From Citreicoccus inhibens (lineage in GTDB: Bacteria; Myxococcota; Myxococcia; Myxococcales; Myxococcaceae), in NCBI RefSeq assembly GCF_019039035.1, contig NZ_JAHNZT010000007.1:1-64000 (forward strand): 64,000 nt of DNA, in the 5' to 3' direction. How positions within the stretch are numbered: position 1 is the first letter of the stretch; the number at the start of each line of letters is the position of its first letter. This document shows positions 60,352 to 64,000 of the stretch, one piece after another. The notes beneath the pieces are model-generated. The model saw only the letters and a list, made by a program, of their open reading frames with translations, did not search any database and was not told the DNA's origin. Both the position numbers and the translations under genes were made by a program.

Positions 60352-61911
60352 ATGACCCTGCCCAACATCACCCTGGCAGACTTCCTCCCGCTGCTGCCCG
60401 CCCTCATCATGGTGGTGGGCGCCTCCATCCTGCTGCTGTCGGAGGTGTTCCTCTCCTCCTCGGCGTCCCGCGGGTACCAGGCAGTCCTCACCGTGGCCAC
60501 GGCGGTGGCGAGCGGCCTGACGGCCCTGGGGCTCATGTTCGAGCCGCCGCACGCGGTGTTCCTCGGCTACGGCGTGCTGGACCCCTTCTCCAGCTTCCTC
60601 ACGCTGGTGGTCTGCGTAGGCCTGGCGCTGGCCGCGCTCGCGTCGGTGAGCTTCCTGCGCAAGCGCGGGGCGGAGCGCGGTGAGTTCTACGCGCTGATGC
60701 TCTTCGCCTCGGCGGGCATGAGCCTGCTGGCGATGTCCGCCGAGTTCATCACCCTGTTCGTCAACCTCGAGGTCCTCTCGGTCGCGACGTACGCGCTGAC
60801 GGCGTACCTGCGGCGCGGGACGCGGCCCAGCGAGGCGGGCTTCAAGTACTTCATCCTCGGCGCCTTCTCTTCCGCGGTGCTGCTGTACGGCACGGCGCTG
60901 CTCTACGGCGCCACGGGCACCACGAAGCTGGCGGACATGGCCGGGCCGCTGTCGCAGGCGCTCGCCACCGCTCCGGCGCTCGTCTACACCGGCGCCATCC
61001 TGGTGGCCGCGGGCTTCGCCTTCAAGGTCGCGGCGGTTCCGTTCCACATGTGGACGCCGGACGTCTACGAGGGCGCGCCCACGCCCGTGACGGCGCTGAT
61101 GAGCGCGGGCGTCAAGGCGGCGGCCTTCGCGGCGATGGTCCGCGTGTTCCTCACCGTGGGCAAGGGCATGGATCCGCACATGCCGCTGGCGCTGTTCTCC
61201 ACGCTGGCGCTGCTGACCATGGTGGTGGGCAACCTGCTCGCCATCCCCCAGCGCAACGTGAAGCGCATGCTGGCGTACTCGTCCATCGCGCACGCGGGCT
61301 ATCTGCTCCTGGGCGTGGCGGCGCTGTTCGTCACGGCGCCGGGCGAGCACTTCCGCATCCTGGGCGCCTCGGCGCTGACGGGCGGCACGCCGCTGGACGT
61401 GGCGCGCTCGGACGCGCTGCGCGGCATCCTGTACTACCTCTTGGCCTACACCTTCAGCGCGGTGGGCGCCTTCGCCCTGGTGTCCGCGCTGGAGCGCCGC
61501 GAGGACGAGGACAAGGGCACCGCGTGGGACCTGGAGCGCTTCAGCGGGCTGGCGCAGCGCCGTCCGGGTTGGGCGTTCGCGATGACCGCGTTCATGCTGT
61601 CGCTGGGAGGCATCCCGCCCACCATCGGCTTCATGAGCAAGCTGCTCATCTTCCAGTCCGCCATCGACGTGGGCCTCGTGGGCCTCACCATCGTCGCGGT
61701 GCTCTCCAGCGCGGCCGGCGTGTACTACTACCTGCGCGTGGTGGTTTACATGTTCATGCGGCCGGTCCCCGAGGGTGCGCAGACGTTGGAGCGCAGCTGG
61801 GGCACGGAGGTGGCGCTCGTCATCTCCACCGTCGCCGTGGTGCTGCTGGGCATCATCCCCGGCCGCGTCAGCGAGTGGCTCGCCCACGCGGGCACGCTGT
61901 TCGGCCAGTAG
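60352..61911 (+). CDS. nuoN: NADH-quinone oxidoreductase subunit N
   Basis: 519 residues; third antiporter-like subunit. Motifs: FITLFVNLEVLSVATYALTAYLRRG (Glu), GFAFKVAAVPFHMWTPDVYEGAPTPVTALMSAGVKAAAFA (Lys), NVKRMLAYSSIAHAGYLLLGVAALF, MLSLGGIPPTIGFMSKLLIFQSAI. Last gene of the cluster; a GC-rich hairpin follows 25 bp after the stop. Confidence 0.95.
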   Translation: MTLPNITLADFLPLLPALIMVVGASILLLSEVFLSSSASRGYQAVLTVATAVASGLTALGLMFEPPHAVFLGYGVLDPFSSFLTLVVCVGLALAALASVSFLRKRGAERGEFYALMLFASAGMSLLAMSAEFITLFVNLEVLSVATYALTAYLRRGTRPSEAGFKYFILGAFSSAVLLYGTALLYGATGTTKLADMAGPLSQALATAPALVYTGAILVAAGFAFKVAAVPFHMWTPDVYEGAPTPVTALMSAGVKAAAFAAMVRVFLTVGKGMDPHMPLALFSTLALLTMVVGNLLAIPQRNVKRMLAYSSIAHAGYLLLGVAALFVTAPGEHFRILGASALTGGTPLDVARSDALRGILYYLLAYTFSAVGAFALVSALERREDEDKGTAWDLERFSGLAQRRPGWAFAMTAFMLSLGGIPPTIGFMSKLLIFQSAIDVGLVGLTIVAVLSSAAGVYYYLRVVVYMFMRPVPEGAQTLERSWGTEVALVISTVAVVLLGIIPGRVSEWLAHAGTLFGQ

Positions 61912-62051: not shown

Positions 62052-62183
62052 CTGGGGGGAAAAAGAAGGCGGCCCGGCACCCCAAAAGGGTGTCGGGCCG
62101 CGGGTCTTCTCAAGGTGACGCACCGGAAGTGCTGAAAGGGTGGGGGGGAACCACTTTCAGCCTCGCTTCGATGTGTCCCGCGG
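62052..62183 (-). ncRNA. pxr: pxr-like developmental regulatory sRNA
   Basis: Read on the minus strand. Stem-loop 1 (62160 to 62132): CTGAAAG and CTTTCAG, extended by GGT/ACC, exposing a loop of seven C (62142-62148). A short middle region has GCAC/GTGC and GGTG/CACC pairings. The terminator stem is at 62069-62101. From the predicted sigma-54 start (~62182) to the end of the terminator tail (~62052) is about 131 nt; from the base of stem-loop 1 it is about 108 nt. As I recall, M. xanthus Pxr blocks fruiting-body development, has forms of about 132 and 108 nt, a seven-C run in stem-loop 1, and lies by a sigma-54 regulator. Identity is inferred from this match, not alignment. Confidence 0.75.
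62055..62101 (-). terminator. Intrinsic terminator of the pxr-like sRNA
   Basis: A 14-bp stem with one G-T pair (62069-62082 with 62088-62101) and a 5-nt loop; on the minus strand it is followed by CTTCTTTTTC. On the plus strand there is no T tract, which fixes the direction. Confidence 0.85.
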
Positions 62184-62191
62184 ATTCCTTT

Positions 62192-62207
62192 AGCAGGTGC
62201 CATGCCA
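62192..62207 (-). promoter_or_regulatory. Sigma-54 (-24/-12) promoter of the pxr-like sRNA
   Basis: On the minus strand: TGGCAT, five bases, CTGCT, against consensus TGGCAC-N5-TTGCW, with exact GG-N10-GC spacing. It predicts initiation at about 62181-62183, which gives an RNA of the length expected for Pxr. Confidence 0.75.
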
Positions 62208-62280: not shown

Positions 62281-62302
62281 CCGATTTCAGAGCTGAAATC
62301 GG
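62281..62302. promoter_or_regulatory. Perfect 22-bp palindrome upstream of pxr
   Basis: Arms CCGATTTCAG and CTGAAATCGG flank AG. Its core TTTCA-N4-TGAAA recurs in the next dyad. It lies about 90 bp upstream of the pxr -24/-12 element, the usual distance for an enhancer site. The same arm pattern is found before kdsB. Confidence 0.65.
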
Positions 62303-62303
62303 G

Positions 62304-62317
62304 TTTCAAATCTGAAA
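62304..62317. promoter_or_regulatory. Second TTTCA-N4-TGAAA dyad upstream of pxr
   Basis: TTTCA (62304-62308), AATC, TGAAA (62313-62317), with near-symmetric flanks (GGG and CCC). Its centre is 19 bp from that of the adjacent palindrome, so the two sites lie on nearly the same face of the helix, as in NtrC-type enhancers. Confidence 0.6.
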
Positions 62318-62414: not shown

Positions 62415-63845
62415 CTAGTCCCGGACGACGTCCGGGGGAGGGCGGAGGTTGAGGCGCTTCATCTTCCGCCAGAGGGTGGTGGAGGAGACGCCCAGTTCGT
62501 CCGCCACCCGCGCCAGGTCCACCCCGTGGCGCTCCAGGGATTGGGCGATCGCGCGGCGCTCGGCTTCTTCCACGGCCTCGGCCAGGGACAGGCCGGTGGG
62601 CGCCCCCGGAGCTCTCTCCTCCTGGGCGGGGAGTCCGGGCGGCGGCGCCACGCGCCCCTGCGGGCGGAGCGGGAAGTCCTCGGGCAGCAGCTCATCGCCC
62701 TCGGCGAGCGCGGCGGCCTGCTCCACCAGGTTCTCCAACTCGCGCACGTTGCCGGGGAAGCCATACGTCATGAGGTGCTCCACCGCCGACGCGGACAGGC
62801 GCTTCGGACGGGGGCTGCGGGCGTTGGCGCGCTCCAGGAAGTGCTCGGCCAGGGCGGGCACGTCCTCCAGGCGCTCGCGCAGGGGCGGCACGCGCAGCAT
62901 CACCACGTTGAGGCGGTAGTAGAGGTCCTGGCGAAATCGCTTCTCGCGCACCTCCAGCTCGATGTCGCGGTTGGTGGCGGCGGCGATGCGCACGTCCACG
63001 CGCAGCGCCGTGGACTCGCCGACGCGGCGCACCTCGCCGTCCTGGAGCGTGCGCAGCAGCTTGGACTGGAAGGTGGGGCTCGTCTCCGTCACCTCGTCGA
63101 TGAAGAGCGTGCCGCCGTCGGCCTCCTCGAAGAGGCCGGTGCGCGCCTTCACCGCGCCCGTGAAGGCGCCCTTGGCGTGGCCGAACAGCTCGCTCTCCAG
63201 CAGCGTCTCGCTGATGGCGGCGCAGTTGACCGGGACGAAGGGGCGCGAGCTGCGCCGGCTGTGCGCGTGGAGCGCTCGCGCCACCAGCTCCTTGCCCGTG
63301 CCGCTCTCGCCCTGGATGAGCACGGTGGCGTCGCTCTGCGCGACGCGCAGCAGGCGCGTGGTCAGCTCGCGCATGGCGGGGCTGCGGCCCACGAGCGCCG
63401 ACAGGCCGTGGCGCTGGTTGAACTCGCTGGCGAAGGTGTCCACCGCCGCCTGGAGCTTGGCGCGCTCCAACGCGCGCTCCACGCGGTAGCGCAGCTCGCC
63501 TTCCTTGAAGGGCTTGGTGACGTAGTCGTAGGCCCCCAGGCGCATGGCCTCCACCGCGCTCTCGATGGAGCCGAACGCCGTCATCATGATGACCTGGAGC
63601 CGAGGGGCGACCTCCAGCCCGCGCTTCAGGAGCGTGAGCCCGTCCATGGGCTCCATCTTCAAGTCCGTCAGCAAGAGGTCCACGGGGCCGCTGGCCAACA
63701 GGCGCAGGGCCTCGTCGCCCGTGGCCGCCTCGGAGACGGTGTAGCCCTCGGCGCGGAGGAGCAGCGCGGTGGTGGCGCGCATGTTGCGCTGGTCGTCCAC
63801 CACGAGGATGCGTCCGCGGGGAAGCTGGGTGCTCGCGTTGGTCAT
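62415..63845 (-). CDS. pxrR: Sigma-54-dependent response regulator (PxrR-like)
   Basis: 476 residues. Receiver: ILVVDDQRN, phospho-acceptor Asp61 in [13 protein letters not shown], switch VIMMTAFGS, Lys in [14 protein letters not shown]+ domain ~150-385: Walker [28 protein letters not shown] (intact sigma-54 loop), Walker [33 protein letters not shown]. Fis-type HTH at the end ([26 protein letters not shown]). It overlaps the upstream kinase by ATGA. The sigma-54 promoter and dyads beyond its stop make the pxr-like sRNA its likely target. The symbol rests on the locus match and is tentative. Confidence 0.88.
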
Positions 63846-64000
63846 GGGAAGGACGGGGGCTGCGACAGCGGCAGCCGGAAGGTGAAGGTGGTACCACGGC
63901 CGAGGGTGCTCTCCACGGCAATCTCCCCGTGATGCTCCTCGAGGATGCGCTTCACCACCGCGAGCCCCAGCCCGGTGCCTTGCGCCTTGGTGGTGAAGAA
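63842..64000 (-). CDS. Histidine kinase, C-terminal end only (PxrK-like)
   Basis: Only the last 52 residues are inside the window; the gene begins to the right. [45 protein letters not shown] contains the F and G2 boxes of the HATPase domain. Its TGA overlaps the regulator ATG by 4 bp, so kinase and regulator are coupled. By position it corresponds to the kinase of the Pxr pathway. Confidence 0.85.

Follow-up and report, generated by a model that had tools for sequence, protein, structure and literature searches.

A Pxr small RNA orthologue in a Corallococcus-like member of the Myxococcaceae, and the conservation of its loop, candidate enhancer and regulator across the family

In the soil bacterium Myxococcus xanthus, the small RNA Pxr prevents the formation of fruiting bodies as long as nutrients are available. 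A structured element on the minus strand between nuoN and a gene for a sigma-54-dependent regulator, located in the 64 kb stretch of DNA analysed here (the window), raises the question of whether this RNA is also encoded by the window genome (G000), how it would be controlled, and whether it would serve the same developmental gate.

Identity and structure of the pxr locus

The Rfam model for Pxr (RF01812) matched positions 62168..62061 of the minus strand over its full length (model positions 1-109) with a score of 122.8 bits, 43 bits above the gathering score of 80. This was the sole Rfam match at threshold within the window and the top RF01812 match genome-wide. The pxr gene, annotated here as the SL1-SL3 core of the processed form (62061..62168, minus strand), is exactly 108 nt long and could be aligned without gaps to pxr of a strain labelled M. 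xanthus AM003, with 100 of 108 nucleotides identical. Two of the eight substitutions represent a compensating change from G-C to A-U in SL1, and one converts a G-U pair of SL3 into an A-C mismatch, which is probably harmless. Similarity spans the whole molecule rather than being limited to the terminator, and the locus is almost certainly a Pxr orthologue, as judged from sequence. A known family thereby gains a new member, and it is the comparative results, more than this single locus, that are of interest.

The sequence-only reading, which had proposed a pxr orthologue with a C7 stem-loop, a short structured middle and a terminator on the minus strand, measuring about 108 nt from the first stem to the tail, was borne out in each of these elements. 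Its second size, 131 nt from the predicted start, fared less well: the transcript would measure ~123 nt from ~62181 to ~62059, and 131-132 nt is obtained only with a start at 62183 and an end at 62052. The accessible portions of the Pxr literature contained no 131-nt Pxr size.

Stem-loop SL1 (62127..62164, minus strand) was delineated by the Rfam consensus structure and by free folding. Its loop core, GGTTCCCCCCCACC (62139..62152, minus strand), carries the C7 run at 62148..62142 and represents a putative seed, as indicated by its conservation and by the PX mutation of M. xanthus, which falls in this core (PMC5568312). A single C-to-A change in the SL1 loop restores development in M. xanthus (PMC5568312, PMC5684412), in agreement with the earlier reading. 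The short stem-loop SL2 (62114..62124, minus strand; Rfam consensus) is followed by SL3 (62064..62110, minus strand), an intrinsic terminator with a conserved GCGGCCCG/CGGGCCGC stem of 8 bp and a T run ending at ~62059. SL3 is supported by the Rfam consensus and by pairs altered on both sides in a 35-sequence alignment, and is needed for Pxr accumulation in M. xanthus (PMC5684412). The predicted fold comprises SL1-SL3 with the C7 loop exposed, at an energy of -61.9 kcal/mol versus a mean of -40.6 for 200 dinucleotide shuffles (z = -5.6), none of which was as stable.

The loop 14-mer (GGTT-CCCCCCC-ACC) is unique in the window genome (9.05 Mb), and the same SL1 hairpin was predicted to fold in 38 homologues examined. 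Among 50 distinct homologues, the loop core was GGTTCCCCCCCACC in 46, GGTTTCCCCCCACC (T for the first C) in three and a C8 variant in one. Across the family the loop, GGUU(C/U)CCCCCCACC, is almost invariant and the stem letters vary, as illustrated by the SL1 stem of G045 (TTGGGC/GGCCCAA, versus CTGAAGG/CCTTCAG in M. xanthus). G045 carries a divergent pxr (G045:C35, L219) in which the SL1 stem letters are replaced and the loop is intact.

A second pxr copy in the window genome was considered and rejected: the one other RF01812 match (C46:107489-107612, 35.6 bits) lacks the C-run core, a sigma-54 promoter and an enhancer, and is a chance terminator-like match. A weak second match in G034 (L064), lacking the same three elements, was likewise discarded.

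Predicted promoter, candidate enhancer and the PxrK/PxrR pair

As the earlier reading had stated, the locus sits between nuoN and a sigma-54 regulator gene. The convergent downstream neighbour, nuoN (60352..61911, plus strand; Proton_antipo_M, PF00361), served as a syntenic marker and almost always faces pxr where the contig extends to it. Upstream lies pxrR (nla19-like; 62415..63845, minus strand), encoding an NtrC-family response regulator. This protein has domains of the REC, sigma-54 activator and Fis HTH types (PF00072, PF00158, PF02954) and shares 84 and 89% identity with its syntenic counterparts in G062 and G024, respectively. The 3' end of pxrK (63842..64000, minus strand), encoding a PAS-GAF-HisKA-HATPase kinase (L072 ORF 3843-6554, identified by Pfam domains), runs past the window, and selB lies upstream of it. 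The order selB-pxrK-pxrR-pxr-nuoN is common to the window genome and its relatives; all pxr homologues examined earlier were located between nla19 and a NADH dehydrogenase gene (PMC5568312). Based on PxrR and NuoN protein identity, the nearest relative is G024 of genus g5 (taken as Corallococcus), which places the host among the Myxococcaceae near Corallococcus. The rpoN gene (sigma-54) was observed ~19 kb from pxr in both the window genome (C101:81115-81591) and G062 (C1:1310963-1311439).

A predicted sigma-54 promoter of the -24/-12 type, TGGCATGGCACCTGCT (62192..62207, minus strand), is positioned 39 nt before SL1, a conserved spacing, with a predicted start at ~62181. Of 39 homologues, 31 (including L065 and L067-L069) have a stringent sigma-54 site in the 45 nt that precede SL1, the chance expectation being ~1.5e-4 per 22-nt slot. 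Further upstream, two candidate enhancer palindromes were recognised by sequence pattern, i.e. a promoter-proximal TTTCAGCTCTGAAA (62285..62298, minus strand) and a promoter-distal TTTCAGATTTGAAA (62304..62317, minus strand), spaced 19 bp centre to centre and conforming to a tandem palindrome of TTKCA-N4-TGMAA. The double palindrome occurs once in the window genome, and simulation of 200,000 intergenic sequences produced no instance of it. The pair TTKCANNNNTGMAA(2-10)TTKCANNNNTGMAA was present in 83 of the 96 family genomes, and the reversed control had zero matches in any of the 96. In single-pxr genomes the tandem palindrome was almost always found once per 9-13 Mb, and among the listed positions it lies upstream of pxr nearly everywhere.

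This element accompanies the regulator. Nearly all genomes that encode a PxrR orthologue have a tandem palindrome upstream of pxr, and it was missing in all six examined genomes that carry pxr and lack PxrR (G045, G081, G082, G084, G085 and G086). The association is strong but imperfect, since a few PxrR-bearing genomes (e.g. G046, G049 and G052) possess only degenerate pairs below the strict pattern. In genomes with tandem pxr genes, enhancer pairs often occur per copy (5/5 in G033, five in G034 and 4/5 in G006). The tandem palindrome is therefore a likely PxrR enhancer. As the predicted enhancer usually occurs once per genome, the PxrK/PxrR two-component system looks dedicated to the pxr RNA, and we infer that PxrR is largely so. 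The Pxr papers mention an enhancer-binding region, and its sequence was not found in them; the 2010 discovery paper was outside the scope of this comparison, and priority for the enhancer sequence is not claimed.

Extra single enhancer matches were encountered in G009, G039, G041 and G050, and also in G087 and G092; near those of the first four genomes, neither pxr nor a shared gene was recognised. Extra pxr-like copies with sigma-54 sites and enhancer-like palindromes were observed at L065, L067, L068 and L069 (G046, G051 and G080), on contigs in which neither PxrR nor nuoN was found, and these are possible trans-regulated paralogues. The SL1 stem of the window locus (CTGAAA...TTTCAG, 62127-62164) contains the same half-sites as its enhancer (TTTCA...TGAAA, 62285-62317) in inverted order, which is perhaps due to chance, or perhaps a hint of the origin of the RNA gene.

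These features bear on two simpler accounts of the locus. SL3 forms a strong GC-rich hairpin with near symmetry, and SL3-like terminators alone yield weak Pxr matches elsewhere (L064 and L066), as would be expected if the element were a mere terminator between nuoN and pxrR that yields no small RNA; however, conservation is highest in SL1 and its loop, and the chance matches lack loop, promoter and enhancer, leaving this account with a negligible probability. That the copy is decayed or silent and no longer used by the strain is very improbable: the A-C mismatch in SL3 and the absence of pxrA (see below) would fit decay, but the promoter, the two enhancer sites, the genes pxrR and pxrK, the loop and the terminator are all intact, the fold is much more stable than those of the shuffles, and the 108 nt of pxr are identical in the sister genome (G014) despite altered promoter and enhancer spacers.

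Distribution of Pxr and loss of its regulator

With the Rfam model, 93 of the 96 family genomes gave a Pxr match, as against none of 49 other genomes from the order. An extended model built from 35 homologues raised the former count to 95, one of these genomes (G008) having an incomplete copy at the edge of a contig. The only family genome without a Pxr match, G093, is 85% complete. The distribution found here adds many uncultured genera that score below the Rfam threshold. Outside the family the extended model matched one of 99 genomes (G140, 30.8 bits), which was rejected as Pxr, the match covering the terminator only. When 84,980 species genomes were scanned by pattern, 51 records were returned, of which two bore clearly foreign names and the rest were myxobacterial, delta-proteobacterial or unclassified proteobacterial. 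The record 'Chloroflexi W56' (L084) contains an SL1-like stretch without SL3 and was dismissed as a chance match. Horizontal transfer was rejected for 'Comamonas sp. KCTC 72670' (BNCN01000002.1, L087), a Myxococcus-like genome by its pxr that corresponds to G066 of genus g19; this record is probably mislabelled. Earlier papers placed the origin of Pxr in the suborder containing the family of the window genome, with which the distribution found here agrees.

Relative to M. xanthus Pxr (RF01812), the window locus shares the 108-nt core, SL1-SL3, the C7 loop, the sigma-54 promoter and the position between nla19/pxrR and a NADH dehydrogenase gene; it differs by the eight substitutions, by the lack of pxrA between pxr and nuoN, and by enhancer letters that deviate while the pattern holds. 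The tandem pxr paralogues of Cystobacter/Archangium belong to the same RNA family, with a promoter for each copy (PMC5568312), whereas the window genome is single-copy. Arrays of two to five pxr copies were found in genera g3 and g6, most with a tandem enhancer per copy. In Vibrio, Qrr-type RNAs represent small RNAs that are driven by an NtrC-family regulator and sigma-54 and gate a change in life-style. The likeness of Pxr to these RNAs is in logic only, and no sequence relation is claimed.

According to an earlier report, every species examined has the two-component genes upstream of pxr (PMC5684412). Exceptions to this rule are seen in six genomes from three genera, which keep pxr without a PxrR orthologue; in these, the closest PxrR-like proteins reach about 45-48% identity, versus 70-89% for syntenic orthologues (sister genome excluded). 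In G045 (4.4 Mb), selB-pxr-nuoN is kept and the pxrK-pxrR pair is missing. In genus g21 (G081 and G082), neither PxrR nor a recognisable sigma-54 promoter was found. In G084-G086 (L032-L034; 2.1-2.7 Mb), pxr lies opposite nuoN with other genes in the place of pxrR, a weak GG-N10-GC promoter-like site is retained, and rpoN could be identified in two of the genomes. Two of these three correspond to metagenome-assembled records, whose isolate codes are those of Cornitermes and Embiratermes hindgut samples (PMC7024585). At least most of the PxrR-less genomes are metagenome-assembled; in those with selB or nuoN on the pxr contig, the absence of pxrR is unlikely to be due to assembly gaps. At the level of gene content, these loci show pxr having outlived its regulator in three lineages, including a termite-gut genus. 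The small-genome PxrR-less lineages are presumably non-fruiting, given their genome size and habitat.

Proposed mechanism, targets and the fruiting gate

Work by others in M. xanthus has shown that Pxr is controlled by PxrR/PxrK, trimmed by RNase D and dependent on SL1 and SL3, and that it blocks development; there, Pxr-L is processed to Pxr-S, which is lost on starvation, and RNase D performs the XL-to-L step (PMC10217877). By analogy, PxrK and PxrR would act via the two palindromic enhancer sites (62285-62317) on the sigma-54 promoter (62207-62192), and the transcript would start near 62181 and be trimmed to a ~108-nt form beginning near 62168. SL3 would terminate and stabilise this transcript, and SL1 would present a rigid U-C7 loop for pairing with G-rich stretches of target mRNAs. 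In the presence of nutrients the short form would repress entry into starvation development, and its disappearance would lift the block. This explanation, i.e. a pxr orthologue with PxrK/PxrR-sigma-54 input, loop pairing and a block on starvation development, is very probably correct as a whole. Orthology, structure, promoter and enhancer sequences and synteny are established here. The regulatory input is most likely the same as in M. xanthus, and the SL1 loop probably acts by pairing with mRNA. That the fruiting gate operates in this strain is plausible and somewhat favoured, because single-copy orthologues of M. stipitatus and Stigmatella aurantiaca function in M. xanthus and block its development (PMC5568312).

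The only proposed downstream target in M. xanthus is pxrA, other direct Pxr targets being described as uncharacterised, and pxrA has been reported as restricted to Myxococcus (PMC11928866). Here, its presence beside pxr extends from the g19 genomes (all 27) to G039-G042, G080 and three of the six genomes of g3, a broader distribution than published. It was absent at E<=1e-20 from the window genome and its sister, and from all g5 genomes and G035-G038 (Corallococcus-like and Stigmatella-like relatives). Since pxrA is missing, Pxr of the window genome must act, if at all, on other mRNAs. In a search for GGGGGGGA near ATG in four genomes, most of 30 inspected places were inside or antisense to genes; a few identical strings recur between genomes, and these resemble coding sequence. 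In the small genomes, GGGGGGAA showed no enrichment versus its reversed control. The pxrA of the strain labelled M. xanthus AM003 looks frame-shifted (L100 1912-2479, minus strand), and G078 gives two pieces; the AM003 frameshift may be genuine or may stem from an error of assembly.

Because Pxr persists in genera unlikely to fruit, its role need not be purely developmental. A true orthologue could have a nutrient or metabolic task as its main conserved function, exerted via the C7 loop, with the fruiting gate being derived and possibly inoperative here. Such a task would be in line with the retention of Pxr without PxrR in G045, in G081/G082 and in the termite-gut-associated genus with genomes of 2.1-2.7 Mb, with the contrast between a near-invariant loop and a pxrA that is patchy in distribution and missing from the window genome, and with the lowering of many metabolic transcripts upon pxr deletion in M. 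xanthus (PMC11928866). All functional tests to date have, however, been developmental, the M. stipitatus and S. aurantiaca alleles block development of M. xanthus, and the small-genome copies come from metagenome-assembled genomes; we regard this alternative as a credible minority view. The orthologue that acts in a starvation-development block remains the preferred reading for this strain. For the family, it is tentatively suggested, at slightly below even chance, that Pxr is at root no fruiting-body gate, and rather an RNA of the whole family that acts through its near-invariant U-C7 loop on a conserved set of growth-state targets, with a dedicated PxrK/PxrR input that was dropped in three lineages, one of them in termite guts. 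As Pxr is family-wide with an almost fixed loop, and as some genomes lack pxrA and some lack PxrR, its targets would have to be common to fruiting and probably non-fruiting relatives.
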